From Emticicia oligotrophica DSM 17448 (lineage in GTDB: Bacteria > Bacteroidota > Bacteroidia > Cytophagales > Spirosomataceae): a stretch of DNA of 64,000 nt. The DNA is taken from the NCBI RefSeq assembly GCF_000263195.1, contig NC_018748.1, positions 1,736,001 through 1,800,000 of the forward strand. Reading direction: 5' to 3'. A program made the position numbers and the translations under genes. Positions 23,983-57,324 of the stretch are shown here, piece by piece. Below the pieces are notes generated by a model. The model made no database searches. It was not told the origin of the DNA and was given only the letters and a program-made list of their open reading frames with translations. Numbering within the stretch: the stretch's first letter is position 1; every line of letters begins with the position of its first letter.

Positions 23983-24567
23983 ATGAAGACAAAATTTTTC
24001 GCCGCAATTATCACGGCATTTATGTTTGTAAGCATGGCTAATGCCCAAACAACAAAAATCGGATATACAAATGTTGACTATATCCTTAATAACCTTCCGG
24101 ACGCAAAAGACATCGAAAATAAATTAAAAACTGAAAAAGCTCAATACGATAAACTTTTGCAAGATAAGATTACTGCGTTCCAAACAAAGTATGAAGATTA
24201 TCAAAAAAATGGAGCTACGATGTCAGCAGTAATCAGAGCTGACCGTGAAAAAGAATTGCAAAGTGCTCAAACAGCTATTCAAGAGTTCCAACAAAACTCT
24301 GAGTCAGCTTTACAACAAAAACAACAACAATTGTTGGCTCCAGTTTTAGAGAAAATCGACAAAACTGTGAAAGATGTTGCTAAAGAAAATGGCTATGTAT
24401 ATGTATTTAACACTGATGCTGGCCCTGGTACAACTCCAATTCTTTTGGTTGCTCCAGATGCAGATAATATCTCTGATTTAGTATTCAAAAAATTAGGCGT
24501 AACTCCTCCTGCAAAAGCAGCGGCTCAAACAACACCAGCAGCTCCAGCAGCAGCACCTAAGAAATAA
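23983..24567 (+). CDS. OmpH/Skp family periplasmic chaperone (second copy)
   Basis: It has the same architecture as the gene before it: signal peptide (cut ANA before QTTKIG), KIGYTNVDYILNNLPDAKDIENKL, a Gln/Lys-rich coiled coil including ALQQKQQQLLAPVLEKIDK, and a closing segment GYVYVFNTDAGPGTTPILL. It ends in an Ala/Pro/Thr-rich tail that the first copy lacks. The two are clearly diverged in sequence, so functional specialisation is possible. It ends the bamA block and is followed by an exceptionally long terminator hairpin. Confidence 0.92.
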   Translation: MKTKFFAAIITAFMFVSMANAQTTKIGYTNVDYILNNLPDAKDIENKLKTEKAQYDKLLQDKITAFQTKYEDYQKNGATMSAVIRADREKELQSAQTAIQEFQQNSESALQQKQQQLLAPVLEKIDKTVKDVAKENGYVYVFNTDAGPGTTPILLVAPDADNISDLVFKKLGVTPPAKAAAQTTPAAPAAAPKK

Positions 24568-26356: not shown

Positions 26357-27199
26357 TTATTTCATTTCAACAGTATTGACGAGTGTACCAATACCATCTA
26401 TTGTAATTTTTACTACATCACCTACTTCGAGTGTAAAATCATCGTGCGGCACTATCCCTGTACCTGTCATTAAAAAACAACCATTAGGAAAGGACATTTC
26501 TCTGAATAAATACTCAACCAAATCACTGTGCTTGCGTTTCATTCGATTAATTTCGATGGAATCACTAAACATTGGAATATCAAATCGAAGAATTTCGAGA
26601 TTTATTTTAGTGTTCTCATCAATTGTTGAATCAAAAACGGCAATCCCCGGCCCAATTGCAGCACTTTTATCGTAAGTTTTTGCTTGAGGTAAATAAAGTG
26701 GATTTTCCCCCTCAATATCTCTTGAACTCATATCATTCCCTACTGTATAGCCAGAAATTTGTCCTTTCGAATTAATAAATAAAGTCAATTCTGGTTCGGG
26801 TACATTCCATTTTGAGTCTTTTCTAATTCTTACTGCTTGACCAGACCCCACTACTCTTTGTGGAGTAGATTTAAAAAATAACTCTGGGCGTTCGGCATCA
26901 TAAACTCTATCATAAAAATTATCCCCTCCGGCACCCTTCGACTCTTCCATGCGAGCGTTACGGCTACGTAGATACGTAACCCCCGACGCCCAAACCTCCT
27001 GCGATTGAATCGGAGCCAGTAAACCATTGTCAATTAAGGATTTATATTCGGCAGCGGCTGGCAAAAGTTGAATTTCTCGCTGTAGCTCGAAAAACAAGTC
27101 TTCTCGATTGATGAATGTGTCCCAATCAGTGTGTCTTGAAATATAATAATACCCTTCGTGTTCGATTACGAATCCTTGTAATGTCTTGTAGATTTTCAT
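26357..27199 (-). CDS. Fumarylacetoacetase-family enzyme, probable 2-keto-3-deoxy-sugar-acid dehydratase
   Basis: The C-terminal part carries the FAH-fold metal site: Glu residues in [12 protein letters not shown] (~127-138), then [26 protein letters not shown] and GPGIAVF. The N-terminal ~90 residues, including [13 protein letters not shown], resemble those of 2-keto-3-deoxy-xylonate/arabinonate dehydratases and related hydrolases. Its pairing with a ketoglutaric-semialdehyde dehydrogenase suggests dehydration of a 2-keto-3-deoxypentonate to 2,5-dioxopentanoate. Fumarylpyruvate or acylpyruvate hydrolase activity is possible on sequence alone. It is 280 aa and divergent from the ilv operon. 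Confidence 0.8.
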
Positions 27200-27402
27200 T
27201 AGGATAAATAATGTGGTTTGCGATACTCAATATTAGACAAAAAGAAACAAAAAAGATATTTTTTAAAGAAAAACTTATGCAAAGAAAGGGAGTCTTGAAA
27301 TTTTTCAAAAAAATATTTGGATTTATAAATGAAAGTAGATTCATTTGTAATGAAAATGATTCGCATTCAGCGAATATTCGCAATAAGAGAATCTTTATCA
27401 AT

Positions 27403-27453
27403 ATGATATATACCAGTTTAGTTGTCCTCATCATTATTATTCTACTCGTCTAA
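27403..27453 (+). CDS. ilv leader peptide, MIYTSLVVLIIIILLV (16 aa)
   Basis: This short frame has ATG at 27403-27405 and TAA at 27451-27453. Its last eleven codons specify Leu-Val-Val-Leu-Ile-Ile-Ile-Ile-Leu-Leu-Val, all products of the operon downstream. Such a run fits an amino-acid-sensing leader peptide like E. coli ilvL, though its sequence is unrelated to IlvL. The stop codon lies 2 bases before antiterminator segment 2, the spacing needed for a terminating ribosome to cover that segment. The frame is open upstream to 27211, but nothing there looks conserved. The peptide itself probably has no function beyond ribosome stalling. Confidence 0.78.
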   Translation: MIYTSLVVLIIIILLV

Positions 27454-27491
27454 ACGGGTAGAAGAGGGCTCGCTATGCTTTAAAATAGAAG

Positions 27492-27524
27492 ACCTTCTTC
27501 ACCCACAGTGAAGAAGGTTTTTTT
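27492..27524 (+). terminator. Attenuator terminator upstream of ilvD
   Basis: ACCTTCTTCAC (27492-27502) pairs perfectly with GTGAAGAAGGT (27508-27518) around loop CCACA, followed by a T7 tract to 27524. It stands 51 bases before the ilvD start and after no full-length gene, so its only plausible target is the leader transcript. Confidence 0.88.
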
Positions 27525-27575: not shown

Positions 27576-29255
27576 ATGGCATCATTAAACAAATTCAGCC
27601 GCACCCTTACACAAGAGATTCACAATCCTGCTGCAAAAGCAATGCTTTATGGCGTTGGCTTAACCGATGAAGACATGAACAAACCTCAAATTGGTATCGC
27701 AAGTACTGGATATGAGGGAAATACGTGTAATATGCACTTAAATGGTTTGTCAGTACACGTAAAAAAAGGCATTCAAGAAAACGGAATGGTGGGACTAATC
27801 TTCCACACAATTGGGGTTTCTGATGGCATGACTAACGGTAATAATGGAATGAGTTTTTCTTTACCAAGCCGCGATATCATTGCCGATTCAATCGAAGATG
27901 TTGTACAAGCCCAATGGTATGACGGTGTAATTGCTGTTGTTGGTTGTGATAAAAACATGCCGGGTGCTATGATGGCTATTGCTCGCCTCAATCGCCCAGC
28001 AATGTTGGTTTATGGGGGAACTATCCGTACTGGACAATACAAAGGAAAGAAACTCGATATTGTATCTGCCTTCGAAGCATTAGGGCAAAAATTTGCTGGA
28101 ACAATTTCTGACGAAGATTATAACGGAGTTATTAAAAATGCCATTCCAGGAGCAGGTGCTTGTGGGGGTATGTACACTGCCAATACAATGGCTTCTTCAA
28201 TGGAAGCAATGGGTCTTACGCTTCCAAACTCTTCTAGCTATCCAGCTACTCATGAAGGCAAGAAAGCAGAGTGTTTGGCTATCGGAGCAGCAATGAAGAA
28301 TATGTTAGAGAAAAATATCTGCCCACGTGATATTATGACTCGCAAAGCATTTGAAAATGCAATGACAATTGTAATGGCGATGGGTGGCTCTACTAATGCG
28401 GTTTTACACTATTTAGCAATTGCAAGTTCGGCGGGTGTTGAATTTACACTCAAAGATATTCAAGATATTTCTGACCGCACTCCGCTCATTGGCGACTTAA
28501 AACCATCTGGCAAATACTACATGGAAGATATGTTAGCCATTGGTGGAGTACCAGCATTAATGAAGTATTTACTTAAAAAAGGCCTAATTCACGGTGATTG
28601 TATGACCATTACAGGAAAAACAATCGCTGAAAACTTGGCTGATGTTCCAGATTTAGATTTCGAAGAACAAAAAATCATTCATCCAATCGAATCGCCAATC
28701 AAAGCATCGGGACACTTACAAGTCCTTTACGGAAACCTTGCATCTGGTGGTGCTGTAGCTAAAATTACAGGTAAAGAAGGTGAAAAGTTTGAAGGAATCG
28801 CTAAAGTTTGTGAAAGAGAAGAGGAAGTAATCGAATACTTAGAAAAAGGCGAAATCAAACCAGGACACGTCATTGTCATTCGCAATGAAGGCCCTAAAGG
28901 TGGCCCAGGTATGCCAGAAATGCTCAAGCCAACTTCAGCAGTAATGGGTGCAGGCTTAGGAAATAGCGTAGCCATGATTACTGATGGCCGTTTTTCGGGC
29001 GGAACCCACGGATTTGTCGTAGGTCACGTTACTCCAGAAGCTTTTGATGGCGGAACTATTGCCTTAGTGAAAGATGGGGATAAAATTACAATTGATGCTG
29101 TAGATAATAAGCTCATCCTTCATGTATCAGATGAAGAATTGGCTGTTCGTCGAGCAGCTTGGAAACAAATTCCATCAGAGCATACAAGAGGAGTTCTTCG
29201 TAAATATATCAAAAACGTAAGTTCGGCAAGCGAAGGCTGCGTAACTGACTTATAA
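27576..29255 (+). CDS. ilvD: Dihydroxy-acid dehydratase IlvD
   Basis: It dehydrates 2,3-dihydroxy-3-methylbutanoate and -pentanoate to the 2-keto acids of valine and isoleucine. The iron-sulfur cysteines are Cys51 (GNTCNMH), Cys124 ([10 protein letters not shown]) and Cys196 ([14 protein letters not shown]). The C-terminal segment has [22 protein letters not shown]. At 559 aa it is a normal bacterial DHAD. Its relatives include sugar-acid dehydratases, and the divergent neighbour cluster is sugar-acid related, but its place as first gene before ilvBNC behind a Leu/Val/Ile attenuator marks it as biosynthetic. Confidence 0.95.
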
Positions 29256-29307: not shown

Positions 29308-31068
29308 ATGGGAAATTTATTAGAAATTGAATTAAAGCAAGAAGCCGCTTCTGCTCCAATTGCAAAGAATGAAGAAAAAACAATTCTTTCTGGTGCACAA
29401 GCCATGATGGAGTGTTTACTTGCTGAAGGTGTAGATAATATCTTTGGATATCCGGGCGGAGCCATTATGCCAACCTACGATGCCCTCTATGACTACATGG
29501 ATAGACTCCACCATACTTTGGTTCGTCATGAACAAGGTGCGGGTCATGCTGCTCAAGGCTATGCACGTGTAAGTGGGCGTACAGGTGTATGTTTGGTAAC
29601 TTCAGGCCCTGGTGGAACAAACATGGTTACACCCATTGCCGATGCTATCATTGATTGCACGCCAATGGTTTGTATCGTAGGACAAGTGAAATCAACCTTG
29701 CTCGGCACTGATGCCTTCCAAGAAACTGATATGATAGGTGTAACAACACCTGTTTGCAAATGGAATTATCAGATTACCGACCCAGACGAAGTGCCAGAGG
29801 TAATGGCCAAAGCATTTTTTATTGCTAAATCTGGTAAGCCAGGCCCAGTAGTTATTGATTTTGCACGAGATGCTCAAGTAGCTAAAATGACAAAACCATT
29901 CTCTTACAAAAAAATTGAGAAAATGGTTAGCTACAACCCACGTGTAGTGCCCAAACAAGAACAAATCGAGCGAGCAGCCGAATTAATCAATAAAGCCAAA
30001 CGTCCTTATGTTCTATTTGGTCATGGAGTCTTGATTGCTGATGCTGTTCAAGAATTAATCGAATTCATCGAGAAAACCGATATGCCTTGTGCGAGTACTT
30101 TACTTGGCCTTTCGGCAATGCCTAATAATCACCCGAATTACATGGGCTGGTTAGGAATGCACGGAATGTATTCACCCAATGTGATGACCGATGAATGTGA
30201 TGTTTTGATTGCAATAGGTATGCGTTTTGATGACCGTGTAACGGGTGATGCAACCAAATTTGCCAAACAAGCAAAAATTATTCATATCGAAATCGACCCT
30301 TCGGAAGTAGAGAAAATCAAGAAAACCGAAGCTCCAGTAATTGGCGACGCCAAAGAAGCACTTAAAATGTTGCTTCCTCTTGTAAAAAAAGGAGACTTTA
30401 CTGGTTGGAAAAACGAATTCCGTAAGCTTGATGCGAAAGAATACGAAAAAGTAACACTACGTGATTTAAGCCAAGAAGGTAAAATCAAAATGGCTGAAGT
30501 GGTTGCCTTACTTTCTGATAAGACAAACGGCGAAGCTTGTATTGTAGTAGATGTAGGCCAGCACCAAATGGTAACGGCACGCTATTATCAATTCCGCAAA
30601 CCCAATTCATATATTGCTTCGGGTGGACTGGGTACTATGGGCTTTGCTATACCCGCCTCTTTTGGTGCAAAAGTAGGAGCTCCAGACCGTGAAGTAGTGG
30701 GTGTTATCGGTGATGGTTGTTTCCAAATGACTATTCAGGAACTTGGTACAATTGCCCAGAGTGGTTTGGCGGTAAAGATGATTATCCTTAACAACAATTT
30801 CTTAGGAATGGTACGCCAATGGCAGCAGTTATTCTTCGATAATCGCTATTCATTCGTAGAACTTCAAAACCCTGATTTCATTACCATTGCTAAGGGATTC
30901 GGAATTGCAGGACATACTTGTTCAGATAGAGAAAACCTAAGCGATTCATTGGATACATTATTAGCGTCTAAAAAAGCCTATTTACTAGAGGTAATCGTAG
31001 AAAAAGAAGAAAACGTATTCCCTATGGTTCCTGCTGGAACAAGCGTAAGCGAGATTCGCTTGGAGTAG
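29308..31068 (+). CDS. ilvB: Acetolactate synthase large subunit IlvB
   Basis: This thiamine-diphosphate and FAD enzyme condenses pyruvate to acetolactate, or with 2-oxobutyrate to acetohydroxybutyrate. The catalytic Glu is in VRHEQGAGHAAQGYARVSG. The central FAD domain has GMHGMYSPNVM and IAIGMRFDDRVTG. The C-terminal ThDP motif is GDGCFQMTIQELGT...LNNNFLGMVRQWQ. A ~25-residue N-terminal extension precedes the conserved SGAQAMMECL. At 586 aa it is the biosynthetic type. It lies 52 bases after ilvD. Confidence 0.95.
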   Translation: MGNLLEIELKQEAASAPIAKNEEKTILSGAQAMMECLLAEGVDNIFGYPGGAIMPTYDALYDYMDRLHHTLVRHEQGAGHAAQGYARVSGRTGVCLVTSGPGGTNMVTPIADAIIDCTPMVCIVGQVKSTLLGTDAFQETDMIGVTTPVCKWNYQITDPDEVPEVMAKAFFIAKSGKPGPVVIDFARDAQVAKMTKPFSYKKIEKMVSYNPRVVPKQEQIERAAELINKAKRPYVLFGHGVLIADAVQELIEFIEKTDMPCASTLLGLSAMPNNHPNYMGWLGMHGMYSPNVMTDECDVLIAIGMRFDDRVTGDATKFAKQAKIIHIEIDPSEVEKIKKTEAPVIGDAKEALKMLLPLVKKGDFTGWKNEFRKLDAKEYEKVTLRDLSQEGKIKMAEVVALLSDKTNGEACIVVDVGQHQMVTARYYQFRKPNSYIASGGLGTMGFAIPASFGAKVGAPDREVVGVIGDGCFQMTIQELGTIAQSGLAVKMIILNNNFLGMVRQWQQLFFDNRYSFVELQNPDFITIAKGFGIAGHTCSDRENLSDSLDTLLASKKAYLLEVIVEKEENVFPMVPAGTSVSEIRLE

Positions 31069-31156: not shown

Positions 31157-31696
31157 ATGACAACATACACTATTTGCGTATTTACCGAAAATAGCATCGG
31201 ACTACTCAACAAAATCACAATTATATTTACCCGCCGAAGAATCAATATTGAATCTTTGACGGTATCGGAAACTGAGCGTAAGGGTATTTCTCGATTCACA
31301 ATCGTAATTAAACATGAACGACGTGAAGAAGTAGAAAAACTCGTACGTCAGATTCGAAAAATTATCGAAGTTTTGGCGGTATTCGGTTACCTAAACGAAG
31401 ATATTGTTTATAATGAAATTGCGTTATTTAAAGTTTCTACGCCTTTGAATGGTAAATCTATTGATGTTGAAACAGTCAATAAAGTTTATAAAGCATGGGT
31501 TGTTTATTGGGGGCTTGATTATGTAGTTATCGAAAAAACAGGTACAGAAACTGAAATTTTTGAGTTCTTTAAATACATTAAACCCCACGGTATTATTGAG
31601 TTTGTTCGTTCGGGCCGAGTTGCAGTAGGCAAAACTCCAAAAGGATTAATCGAATATCTTCCAGAAGAAATCACCGAATGGGAGTATTATTTGTAA
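31157..31696 (+). CDS. ilvN: Acetolactate synthase small (regulatory) subunit IlvN
   Basis: It binds the large subunit and gives valine feedback. The N-terminal ACT domain reads TTYTICVFTENSIGLLNKITIIFTRRRINIESLTVSETE. The C-terminal domain ends with IKPHGIIEFVRSGRVAVGK. The chosen ATG at 31157 starts directly before the ACT domain and gives 180 aa, a normal length. The frame is open to an earlier ATG at 31082, but those 25 codons fall within the 31069-31154 repeat and have no family match. Confidence 0.94.
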   Translation: MTTYTICVFTENSIGLLNKITIIFTRRRINIESLTVSETERKGISRFTIVIKHERREEVEKLVRQIRKIIEVLAVFGYLNEDIVYNEIALFKVSTPLNGKSIDVETVNKVYKAWVVYWGLDYVVIEKTGTETEIFEFFKYIKPHGIIEFVRSGRVAVGKTPKGLIEYLPEEITEWEYYL

Positions 31697-31745: not shown

Positions 31746-32789
31746 ATGGCAAAATTAAATTTCGGCGGTGTTGAAGAGGAAGTTGTAACCCGCGAAGAGT
31801 ACCCACTCGAAAAAGCAAGAGAGTTTTTGAAAGGTCAAACAATCGCTGTGATTGGCTATGGTGTACAAGGCCCTGGTCAAGCTATGAACATGCGTGACAA
31901 TGGTTTCAACGTAATCGTTGGCCAACGACCTGGTAAAACTTATGATAAAGCTGTTGCTGACGGTTGGGTTCCAGGAAAAACTCTTTTCAGCATCGAAGAC
32001 GCATTACAAAAAGGTACAATTATTTGTTTCCTTTTATCTGATGCAGCTCAAATTGCCTTATGGCCAACAGTGAAACAATACCTTAAAAAAGGTAAAACTT
32101 TATATTTCTCTCACGGATTCGGTATCACTTACAGCAAAAAAACTGGTATCAAACCTCCGAAAAATGTTGACGTTATCTTGGTTGCTCCTAAAGGTTCAGG
32201 TACTTCTCTTCGTCGTTTGTTCGTTGAAGGAAAAGGTCTTAACTCTTCATTTGCTGTTTATCAAGATGCTACAGGACAAGCTCGCGAAAAAGCAATTGCA
32301 ATGGGTATCGGTGTAGGTTCGGGCTACTTATTCGAAACTGATTTCTACCGCGAAGTAACATCTGACCTTACAGGTGAGCGTGGTACTTTGATGGGTGCTA
32401 TCCAAGGTATTTTCGCTGCTCAATATGAAGTATTGCGTGAAAATGGTCACTCTCCATCAGAAGCTTTCAACGAAACAGTTGAAGAATTAACACAATCGTT
32501 GATGCCTTTAGTTGCTGAAAACGGTATGGATTGGATGTACGCAAACTGTTCTACAACTGCTCAACGTGGTGCGTTAGACTGGTGGAAACCTTTCCATGAT
32601 GCTACTAAGCCAGTTTTCAAAAAGCTTTACAATAGCGTAAAAACACAAAAAGAAGCTGCTCAATCTATCGAGCGTAACTCACAACCTGATTACCGTGAGA
32701 AATTAGAGGTAGAATTAGCAGAACTTCGTGAATCTGAAATGTGGCAAGCAGGTAAAACTGTTCGTAGCTTACGTCCAGAAAGAAACTAA
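31746..32789 (+). CDS. ilvC: Ketol-acid reductoisomerase IlvC
   Basis: It isomerises and reduces acetolactate or acetohydroxybutyrate using NAD(P)H and magnesium. The Rossmann motif AVIGYGVQGPGQAMNMRDNG (about 34-53) has the GVQGPGQ form seen in Bacteroidota in place of the more common GSQGHAHA. Cofactor-choice loop residues follow in VGQRPGKTYDKA. The helical C-terminal domain includes DLTGERGTLMGAIQGIF with the metal-binding acidic residues. At 347 aa it is a class I enzyme. It lies 49 bases after ilvN. Confidence 0.94.
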   Translation: MAKLNFGGVEEEVVTREEYPLEKAREFLKGQTIAVIGYGVQGPGQAMNMRDNGFNVIVGQRPGKTYDKAVADGWVPGKTLFSIEDALQKGTIICFLLSDAAQIALWPTVKQYLKKGKTLYFSHGFGITYSKKTGIKPPKNVDVILVAPKGSGTSLRRLFVEGKGLNSSFAVYQDATGQAREKAIAMGIGVGSGYLFETDFYREVTSDLTGERGTLMGAIQGIFAAQYEVLRENGHSPSEAFNETVEELTQSLMPLVAENGMDWMYANCSTTAQRGALDWWKPFHDATKPVFKKLYNSVKTQKEAAQSIERNSQPDYREKLEVELAELRESEMWQAGKTVRSLRPERN

Positions 32790-32800
32790 TTCCTACAAGG

Positions 32801-32874
32801 AAGGTTTCACCTTGAGCGAAGTCTTTTTTTAATATAACAGAAGAAGCACAGAGGCAAAATCTCTGTGCTTTTTA
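32801..32874 (+). terminator. Terminator between ilvC and ilvA
   Basis: AGCACAGAG (32845-32853) pairs with CTCTGTGCT (32861-32869) and is followed by TTTTTATA. A smaller hairpin (AAGGT/ACCTT, 32801-32813) with GAGCGAAGTC and a T7 tract lies just before it. ilvA may therefore be transcribed mainly from its own promoter or by read-through. Confidence 0.75.
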
Positions 32875-32917: not shown

Positions 32918-34195
32918 ATGGCATCAACAAAAACAAAATCTGAACTGACCTTCCCAGATTTAGATAATATCTATCTTGCCGCCGAACGCCTACAAGGTGT
33001 GGCCACCCACACACCATTGATGCATAATTTAAACTTATCTGAGCATTATGGTGCCAATATTCATCTTAAACGAGAAGATTTACAGGTTGTCCGCTCTTAT
33101 AAAATAAGAGGAGCTTACAATAAAATGGCCACATTACCTAAAGACCAACTTTCTAAGGGCGTTGTATGTGCCAGTGCGGGTAATCATGCTCAAGGGCTTG
33201 CTTATGCTTGCCGAAAAATGCAGGTAAATGGCACTATCTTTATGCCAACTACCACACCTGCTCAAAAAATAAAACAAGTAGGGATGTTTGGCAAGGAATT
33301 CGTGAAAATTGAATTGGTGGGAGATACTTATGATGATGCCTATTATGCCGCCAAAAAATATTGTGAAGAACAAAACGCCACTTTTGTACATCCGTTTGAT
33401 GATTTACAAGTAATGGAGGGACAAGGCACTGTTGGGCTAGAAATATTCAAAGATGCCAACTTTAAGATTGATTACCTTATTTTTGCCATCGGTGGCGGTG
33501 GATTAGCTTCTGGGGTTTCTACGGTCTTTAAGCAACTTTCACCCAAAACCAAACTCGTAGCGGTTGAACCGTTAGGTTCGCCCACTATGAAAACAGCTAT
33601 CGAATTGGGTGAAGTTGTGACACTGGAGGAAATTGATAAGTTTGTTGATGGGGCGGCTGTCAAACGAGCAGGTGATTTAACCTTTCAAGTTTGTAGAGAA
33701 AACCTCAATCATGAAATTCTATTAATCCCTGAAGGAAAGGTTTGCTCAGCTATCTTACAACTCTACAACGAAGAAGCCATTGTAGCTGAACCTGCGGGGG
33801 CATTATCGGTAGCGGCTTTAGATTTTATTAAAGACGAGATTAAAGGGAAAAACGTCGTTTGTATTATCGGTGGAGGTAATAATGATATTACACGCACGGA
33901 AGAAATCAAAGAACGCTCACTACTCTACGAAGGCCTCAAGCATTATTTTATCATTCGTTTTCCACAACGTGCGGGGGCTTTTAAAACATTTTTAAACGAT
34001 GTATTAAGCCCTACCGACAATATTGTATTTTTTGAGTACTCTAAAAAGACAGCTCGTGAACGAGGGCCTGCATTAGTAGGAATCGAGCTCAAACAACAGT
34101 CTGATTTTCAACCGCTTATCGAGCGAATGAATGCCAACAATGTGCAATTTGAATATATCAACGACAAACCAGAACTTTTTGAGTTTTTGATATAG
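32918..34195 (+). CDS. ilvA: Threonine dehydratase (biosynthetic) IlvA
   Basis: This PLP enzyme makes 2-oxobutyrate from threonine, the entry step to isoleucine. The PLP lysine is Lys62 in VVRSYKIRGAYNKM, with SAGNHAQGLAYAC and the glycine-rich FAIGGGGLASG downstream. The C-terminal ~85 residues (EGLKHYFIIRFPQRAGAFKTFLND) are a single ACT-like regulatory domain, the shorter form (425 aa) as against ~514 aa in E. coli. Location after ilvDBNC supports the biosynthetic role over a catabolic one. Confidence 0.93.
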   Translation: MASTKTKSELTFPDLDNIYLAAERLQGVATHTPLMHNLNLSEHYGANIHLKREDLQVVRSYKIRGAYNKMATLPKDQLSKGVVCASAGNHAQGLAYACRKMQVNGTIFMPTTTPAQKIKQVGMFGKEFVKIELVGDTYDDAYYAAKKYCEEQNATFVHPFDDLQVMEGQGTVGLEIFKDANFKIDYLIFAIGGGGLASGVSTVFKQLSPKTKLVAVEPLGSPTMKTAIELGEVVTLEEIDKFVDGAAVKRAGDLTFQVCRENLNHEILLIPEGKVCSAILQLYNEEAIVAEPAGALSVAALDFIKDEIKGKNVVCIIGGGNNDITRTEEIKERSLLYEGLKHYFIIRFPQRAGAFKTFLNDVLSPTDNIVFFEYSKKTARERGPALVGIELKQQSDFQPLIERMNANNVQFEYINDKPELFEFLI

Positions 34196-57297: not shown

Positions 57298-57324
57298 GAA
57301 GCCTTCGCTTGAAGCGAAGACTTC
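57298..57324 (+). repeat. Hairpin in the leader of the 57351 lipoprotein gene
   Basis: CTTCGCTT (57303-57310) pairs with AAGCGAAG (57312-57319), and after one mismatch GAAG (57298-57301) pairs with CTTC (57321-57324); TTTTAA follows. It lies between dinB and the lipoprotein start. It may be a weak leader terminator or a small dispersed palindrome. Confidence 0.45.

Follow-up and report, generated by a model that had tools for sequence, protein, structure and literature searches.

A probable ribosome-mediated transcription attenuator before ilvD of Emticicia oligotrophica, and comparable leaders in other Bacteroidota

How a member of the Bacteroidota matches the synthesis of branched-chain amino acids to their supply is the question raised by a short region upstream of ilvD in Emticicia oligotrophica DSM 17448. 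In the textbook attenuation systems of Escherichia coli, a leader peptide and a foldable RNA shut genes off when amino acids are plentiful; control of this kind requires early loading of a ribosome that stays close to RNA polymerase. To our knowledge, the tightness of transcription-translation coupling in Bacteroidota has been little studied. The DNA analysed here, called the window, is a stretch of 64,000 nucleotides; sequence comparison and folding calculations make it very probable that its ilv operon is preceded by a ribosome-mediated transcription attenuator.

The ilv leader and its alternative structures

The features of the locus are the following.

27316..27347, plus strand: probable promoter, with TTTG at 27316-27319, a 20-nt spacer and TTCATTTG at 27340-27347
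27360..27381, no strand assigned: palindromic element TTCGCATTCAGCGAATATTCGC holding GCGAATATTCGC (27370-27381), possible operator, from conservation judged by eye
27403..27453, plus strand: leader peptide frame MIYTSLVVLIIIILLV, from sequence and relatives
27418..27450, plus strand: control codons, eleven consecutive Leu/Val/Ile, from sequence and shuffles
27440..27463 with an extension, plus strand: 1:2 pause hairpin, from the fold; strong here, variable in relatives
27456..27504, plus strand: antiterminator 2:3, from duplex energy and covariation
27487..27524, plus strand: terminator 3:4, from fold and covariation
27576..29255, plus strand: ilvD, dihydroxy-acid dehydratase (NCBIfam TIGR00110)
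29308..31068, plus strand: ilvB, acetolactate synthase large subunit (NCBIfam TIGR00118)
31157..31696, plus strand: ilvN, acetolactate synthase small subunit (listed ORF from 31082; NCBIfam TIGR00119)
31746..32789, plus strand: ilvC, ketol-acid reductoisomerase (NCBIfam TIGR00465)
32918..34195, plus strand: ilvA, threonine ammonia-lyase (NCBIfam TIGR02079)

The upstream neighbour of the operon is divergent (26357-27199, minus strand), and in the stretch listed the nearest upstream plus-strand ORF of at least 100 aa ends at 24567. A terminator-like hairpin of 14 pairs (32841-32873) lies between ilvC and ilvA, so that ilvA may form a transcription unit of its own or be transcribed less. Elsewhere in this genome, a second protein of the IlvD/Edd family, 35% identical to IlvD, is encoded at G000:C5:406212-407771. 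The segment 27316-27347 resembles what we take to be the Bacteroidota TTTG / TAnnTTTG consensus, with five of the six defined bases in the second element; both the TTTG and the TTTG-ending element are kept in aligned relatives. A sigma-70 scan was uninformative (47 found, 45.9 expected).

The leader frame comprises 16 codons for the peptide MIYTSLVVLIIIILLV and ends with UAA at 27451-27453. Codons 6-16 all specify Leu, Val or Ile, eleven in succession, just as an earlier note on this DNA had read them. Two other Leu/Val/Ile runs, of 9 codons, occur in the six frames of the window, and none of at least eleven codons was found in the six frames of 20 window shuffles.

Three helices can be drawn in this RNA. 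The 1:2 pause hairpin, for which 9 bp had been proposed, is found where it was placed and is slightly larger, with 10 bp (27440-27449 with 27454-27463) and an extension (27423-27428 with 27464-27469). The antiterminator 2:3, likewise described as 9 bp, is also present and longer, pairing approximately 27456-27468 with 27491-27504 in a duplex of -20.5 kcal/mol. The terminator 3:4 pairs 27487-27502 with 27508-27523, A-U pairs included, and its T run occupies 27518-27524; the 11-bp core, the T7 run and the distance of 51 nt to ilvD reported before are correct. Sequence, fold and covariation thus point to an intrinsic terminator between the leader and the first gene. Segment 3 pairs either backward or forward, which makes antiterminator and terminator mutually exclusive, as the earlier note had claimed. 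The leader fold amounts to -45.5 versus a shuffled mean of -23.2 (z -6.5), a value equalled by none of 200 shuffles. A simple terminator scan reports this hairpin on the minus strand only, we think because the plus-strand stem runs into the T run; for the region the scan gives 13 versus 12.0, without excess.

We infer promoter activity, leader translation, termination and an amino-acid response. Transcription would start slightly downstream of 27347 and the leader of 16 codons would be transcribed; with charged Leu-, Val- or Ile-tRNA scarce, the ribosome would stall in the run (at codons 6-15, by the calculation described below) and cover segment 1, so that segment 2 (27456-27468) would remain available to segment 3 (27491-27504). 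The antiterminator so formed would block the terminator and ilvD onward would be transcribed. With ample charged tRNA, the ribosome would reach the UAA and mask segment 2, segment 3 would pair with segment 4 (27508-27523), and RNA polymerase would halt in the T run. If the leader were not translated, the 1:2 hairpin, unusually strong here, should also free the terminator.

This layout resembles that of E. coli K-12 ilvL, before ilvXGMEDA: a short frame with a long Ile/Val/Leu run, an exclusive antiterminator and terminator, genes of the same pathway and, in the stall calculation, a switch where the run ends. It differs in having ilvD as the first gene and in a frame that ends with the run, with segment 2 just past the stop; in ilvL another 12 codons follow, reaching into the paired region. 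The local alignment score between the leader and IlvL is attained by 2 of 1000 IlvL shuffles; we take it to reflect shared Leu/Val/Ile blocks and do not accept homology. As far as can be discerned the peptides share such blocks only, in line with the lack of sequence relation asserted earlier.

Calculated ribosome stalling, and covariation in relatives

In the stall calculation a ribosome is set on each codon, that codon and the 12 nt beyond it are hidden, and the rest, through the terminator loop, is folded; the readout, how far segment 3 pairs upstream, describes equilibrium folding and not kinetics. For the window leader, any of codons 4-15 in the A site gives 0.71-0.84, codon 16 gives 0.58 and the stop 0.13, a fall that agrees with the proposed masking of segment 2 by a ribosome at the stop codon; a footprint 3 nt shorter or longer moves the profile by one codon. 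When the stretch from stop to terminator is shuffled, 13 of 500 sequences give the switch pattern (mean stall value at least 0.6, stop value at most 0.2) and 3 of 500 attain the native stall value. Among the E. coli controls, the antiterminator disappears in ilvL as the Ile run ends, in leuL just past the Leu run (it partly recovers, to about 0.3, ahead of the stop), and in trpL two codons beyond the Trp pair. With these controls, the calculation predicts that stalling frees segment 2 and that a ribosome at the stop masks it.

The calculation was run on 68 leaders and 66 were kept; L124 and L222, with an antiterminator probability below 0.4 throughout, were dropped. In the 66 leaders, Leu, Val and Ile make up 613 of 1032 permissive codons versus 40 of 181 non-permissive ones, and how far the run end lies from the stop correlates with how far the switching point does (Spearman 0.85, n=66; 0.89 in 18 representatives chosen by hand). 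The antiterminator is lost at a median of 3 codons past the end of the branched-chain run, and the switching point tracks the run end also where a tail of other residues follows, e.g. MLSTVISLVIIRVIGI-syrsgkaic.

The close relatives were taken as the best 80 of 553 ilvD loci from a contig search with IlvD, in which the nearest records are from Emticicia and Cytophagaceae. A filter for a short frame with at least 7 Leu/Val/Ile in 10 codons, followed by a terminator, is passed by 29 of the 80 in sense and by 0 of 80 in antisense. A covariance model was made from an alignment of 28 leaders, those of the window and of 27 loci (alignment A1 omits L005 and L015, near-duplicates; L063 has almost no upstream sequence). 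Upstream of ilvD it matches 31 of the 80 loci, 27 of them used to build the model, so the leader expected in relatives is conserved at these loci and the remaining ones do not match; the match at L068 sits more than 640 nt upstream of ilvD. Matching records are named Emticicia, Flectobacillus, Arcicella, Pseudarcicella, Runella and Xanthocytophaga, with one labelled Cellulophaga; within the 80-locus set, no match was found at ilvD in records named Spirosoma, Larkinella, Fibrella, Aquirufa or Lacihabitans, nor at the ilvD locus of Emticicia sp. CRIBPO (L082). The model also yields weaker antisense matches over the same hairpin. Among the relatives the residues of the leader peptide drift, while Leu/Val/Ile content and frame position are kept. 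In L005, from a MAG, AGG replaces the leader ATG and the remaining leader is kept, which may represent decay, an assembly error or an alternative start.

In the whole-genome set, the model has a match somewhere in 86 of 222 members of the family, among them all 11 genomes of the genus. Twenty family-level sites were opened: 8 lie before ilvD, 7 before leuA and 5 before neither, therefore some of the 86 may be false. The five (L204, L207, L209, L210, L214) all have E-values of at least 1e-4. One of them, L209 (G542:C22:65035-65129; E 4.3e-4), is a weak match whose frame, MIAIQLNIWSLLLRSKS, precedes a gene that, by reading of its sequence, resembles an EamA-type membrane transporter.

Compensatory changes, also expected of relatives, were found for two of the three stems, antiterminator and terminator. 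Over the 28 leaders the covariation score is 0.297 versus 0.165 in shuffles for the antiterminator and 0.440 versus 0.226 for the terminator, with 0 of 500 shuffles as high in either case; the rows are related and such P-values overstate their independence. Slid-register controls score far lower for both helices; for counts of double-change pairs and of pair types the shuffles come closer (78, 24, 29 and 279 of 500). Columns 48/85/104, in segments 2, 3 and 4, are mostly G-C-G, A-T-A or T-A-T depending on the lineage (for instance Emticicia, part of the Arcicella group and Runella, respectively), and columns 47/86/103 and 49/84/105 likewise change together across the three segments. In 37 leaders, the distant rows being partly mis-segmented, native 2:3 segment pairs average -15.1 versus -10.8 (sd 0.5) with permuted partners, and native 3:4 pairs -17.9 versus -11.4 (sd 0.6). 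Conversely, the 1:2 duplex energy ranges from -19.0 here down to -5.2 among the 27 aligned relatives; the stem has bulges. In many relatives ribosome-free equilibrium folding still favours the antiterminator.

Leaders of leuA, trpE and distant ilv operons

As the ilv frame carries its eleven branched-chain codons, short frames with runs of the cognate codon precede leuA and trpE. In this genome, outside the window, the leuA leader has LLLLL and a TTG start (G000:C5:1706909-1707008; L196, about 1993-2110). All 11 genomes of the genus hold at least one further match to the model; in the three where it was opened, this one included, it lies before leuA, again with LLLLL and a TTG start. The trpE leader of this genome, also outside the window (L275, about 1294-1430, G000:C5), is MTQYSNIVKFWWWRPAK, with three Trp codons and a terminator, and GGATGAACAG, past its stop, is perfectly complementary to CTGTTCATCC of the terminator hairpin; its calculated switch is weak, with a drop from 0.58 to 0.48 at the stop. 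Leu- or Trp-run leaders before leuA or trpE are a feature shared with E. coli K-12 leuL and trpL; unlike these, the leuA leader starts with TTG, and Shine-Dalgarno initiation is not expected in this phylum (PMC6847099, available part). A His attenuator was rejected here, no His-run frame being seen before hisG of this genome.

Trp-run leaders are widespread. At trpE loci of the family they occur in 27 of 30, and for 25 of these the scan used there also gives a terminator; the three loci without a Trp-run leader all fall in the window's genus, where two of five loci have the leader. They are present at 21 of 21 trpE loci of genus g15 and, together with a terminator, at 18 of 21 of family f24. 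Overall, in the sampled Bacteroidota, a Trp run with a terminator is found at 66 of 72 trpE loci in sense versus 1 of 72 in antisense, the 72 being the best matches to this genome's TrpE per search and not a random draw. Some trp leaders of the family, e.g. MKQITNIAAKGWWRSSQKS, resemble E. coli TrpL; the Bacteroidota leaders may have an independent or a shared origin.

For ilv, an IlvD match is present in 277 of 392 Bacteroidota genomes searched. Among 109 more distant ilvD places, mostly from the top of the list of 277 genomes, 36 pass the filter in sense versus 3 in antisense; most have no leader by this filter, and 31 leaders were accepted by eye and stall profile. Several sequence types appear, MQISIIITSVVVVNVIHTSASGM in g15, MLSTVISLVIIRVIGI in f24, MNNVTITSISRLFTAVIIVVVVIIPV in f5 and the type of the window. 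With these unrelated-looking ilv types and the near-universal Trp-run leaders at trpE in the groups sampled, we find it rather likely that ribosome-mediated attenuation of ilv, leu and trp is general and probably old in Bacteroidota.

Competing explanations and significance

The hairpin before ilvD could be an ordinary terminator or pause site, and the short frame ahead of it a random ORF or the gene of some unrelated small protein. Neither short frames nor hairpins with a T tail are rare, and the scan finds no terminator excess in the region. Given the divergent upstream neighbour, the hairpin was rejected as the terminator of an upstream plus-strand gene, and a chance pairing does not fit the 29 versus 0 of 80 close loci that pass the filter, the peptide that drifts yet keeps its branched-chain content and frame position, or the covariation of segments 2, 3 and 4; this explanation is hardly credible. 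Alternative pairing is by itself no proof that the ribosome is the sensor, and a small molecule, uncharged tRNA or an RNA-binding protein could throw such a switch, in the manner of a riboswitch, a T-box or a TRAP-like system. A known Rfam family of riboswitch, T-box or leader was ruled out, since a search of the 64-kb window at gathering scores gave 0 matches; the alignments contain no large conserved aptamer between leader and terminator, the codon runs fit the pathway (mixed for ilv, five Leu for leuA, three Trp for trpE) and the end of the run tracks the switching point. A sensor other than the ribosome is accordingly most improbable.

The element GCGAATATTCGC, between the inferred promoter and the leader start, calls for closer weighing, as a factor bound there could control mainly initiation, with the attenuator minor or decayed. 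Close variants occur in other genera, and by eye, across several genera, the palindrome is better conserved than the leader peptide. The exact motif has 4 copies in this genome, and GCGAAWWTTCGC, its form in other genera, 2 to 4 per genome in seven genomes; the reversed control pattern gives 0 to 5, which makes the motif count alone weak evidence. Copies are found upstream of ilvD, of leuA in G457 and of fbp in this genome (G000) and in G401, between glmS and a malate-synthase-like gene in this genome, and near gltB-like and peptide-transporter-like genes in G396; others have no obvious metabolic gene nearby or fall within an ORF. Neighbours other than fbp and glmS are named here by our reading of their sequences. 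The palindrome is thus possibly a transcription factor site, with initiation control and attenuation combined, and the two can coexist. Most exact copies belong to other genes, and the leader has kept both its covariation and its codon content, so we regard control mainly at the palindrome as unlikely. A different family of palindromes, like TTCGCTTNAAGCGAA, occurs in the window (region 57308-57318) and at about 24 other places in this genome; its pattern TTCGCNNNNAGCGAA has 27 forward matches versus 2 for the reversed control, and the copy near 57304 in the window has the appearance of a hairpin.

Ribosome-mediated attenuation, the reading of the earlier note, is supported by the covariation of two stems and by the codon-matched leu and trp leaders; the codon match across ilv, leuA and trpE is its strongest additional evidence.

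Comparable systems have been described elsewhere. The Corynebacterium ilvB-II motif and ilvBNC attenuator share a branched-chain-rich upstream frame, a terminator stem and ilv genes, and differ in belonging to Actinobacteria and in gene order; the available part of that source covers ilvB attenuators of Corynebacterium, with further candidate motifs elsewhere, and does not mention Bacteroidota (PMC10272879). In the same phylum, short ORFs in long 5' UTRs of Bacteroides thetaiotaomicron are reminiscent of attenuation leader peptides; the example precedes the hypothetical protein BT_4401, with neither cognate codons nor validation stated in the portion available (PMC7366714). According to the accessible part of an earlier survey, leader peptide systems were previously known only in Proteobacteria and Actinobacteria, to which it adds Firmicutes (PMC2965389); the Rfam amino-acid attenuators, as given in a partial text, are those for His, Leu, Thr and Trp and may derive from gammaproteobacteria (PMC3766115). 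Bacteroidota lack Shine-Dalgarno sequences according to a study of F. johnsoniae translation whose main text, in the part available, has no words beginning with attenuat (PMC6847099). Among the titles and abstract openings listed, none describes an amino-acid leader attenuator in Bacteroidota; older surveys (Lopatovskaya 2010, Merino 2008) may cover part. The kind of control is old, while phylum and breadth appear new in the searchable literature.

With such leaders, Bacteroidota would join the phyla with leader peptide attenuation, and the leaders suggest amino-acid control of trp, leu and ilv operons in many genomes. That codon runs of conserved leaders stop at the point of the RNA switch speaks, on evolutionary grounds, for transcription-translation coupling in Bacteroidota, and each such leader would be a ready reporter for testing it. 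If attenuation is indeed general, the lead ribosome would trail RNA polymerase at a distance short enough to direct RNA folding, in a phylum that does not initiate by Shine-Dalgarno pairing.
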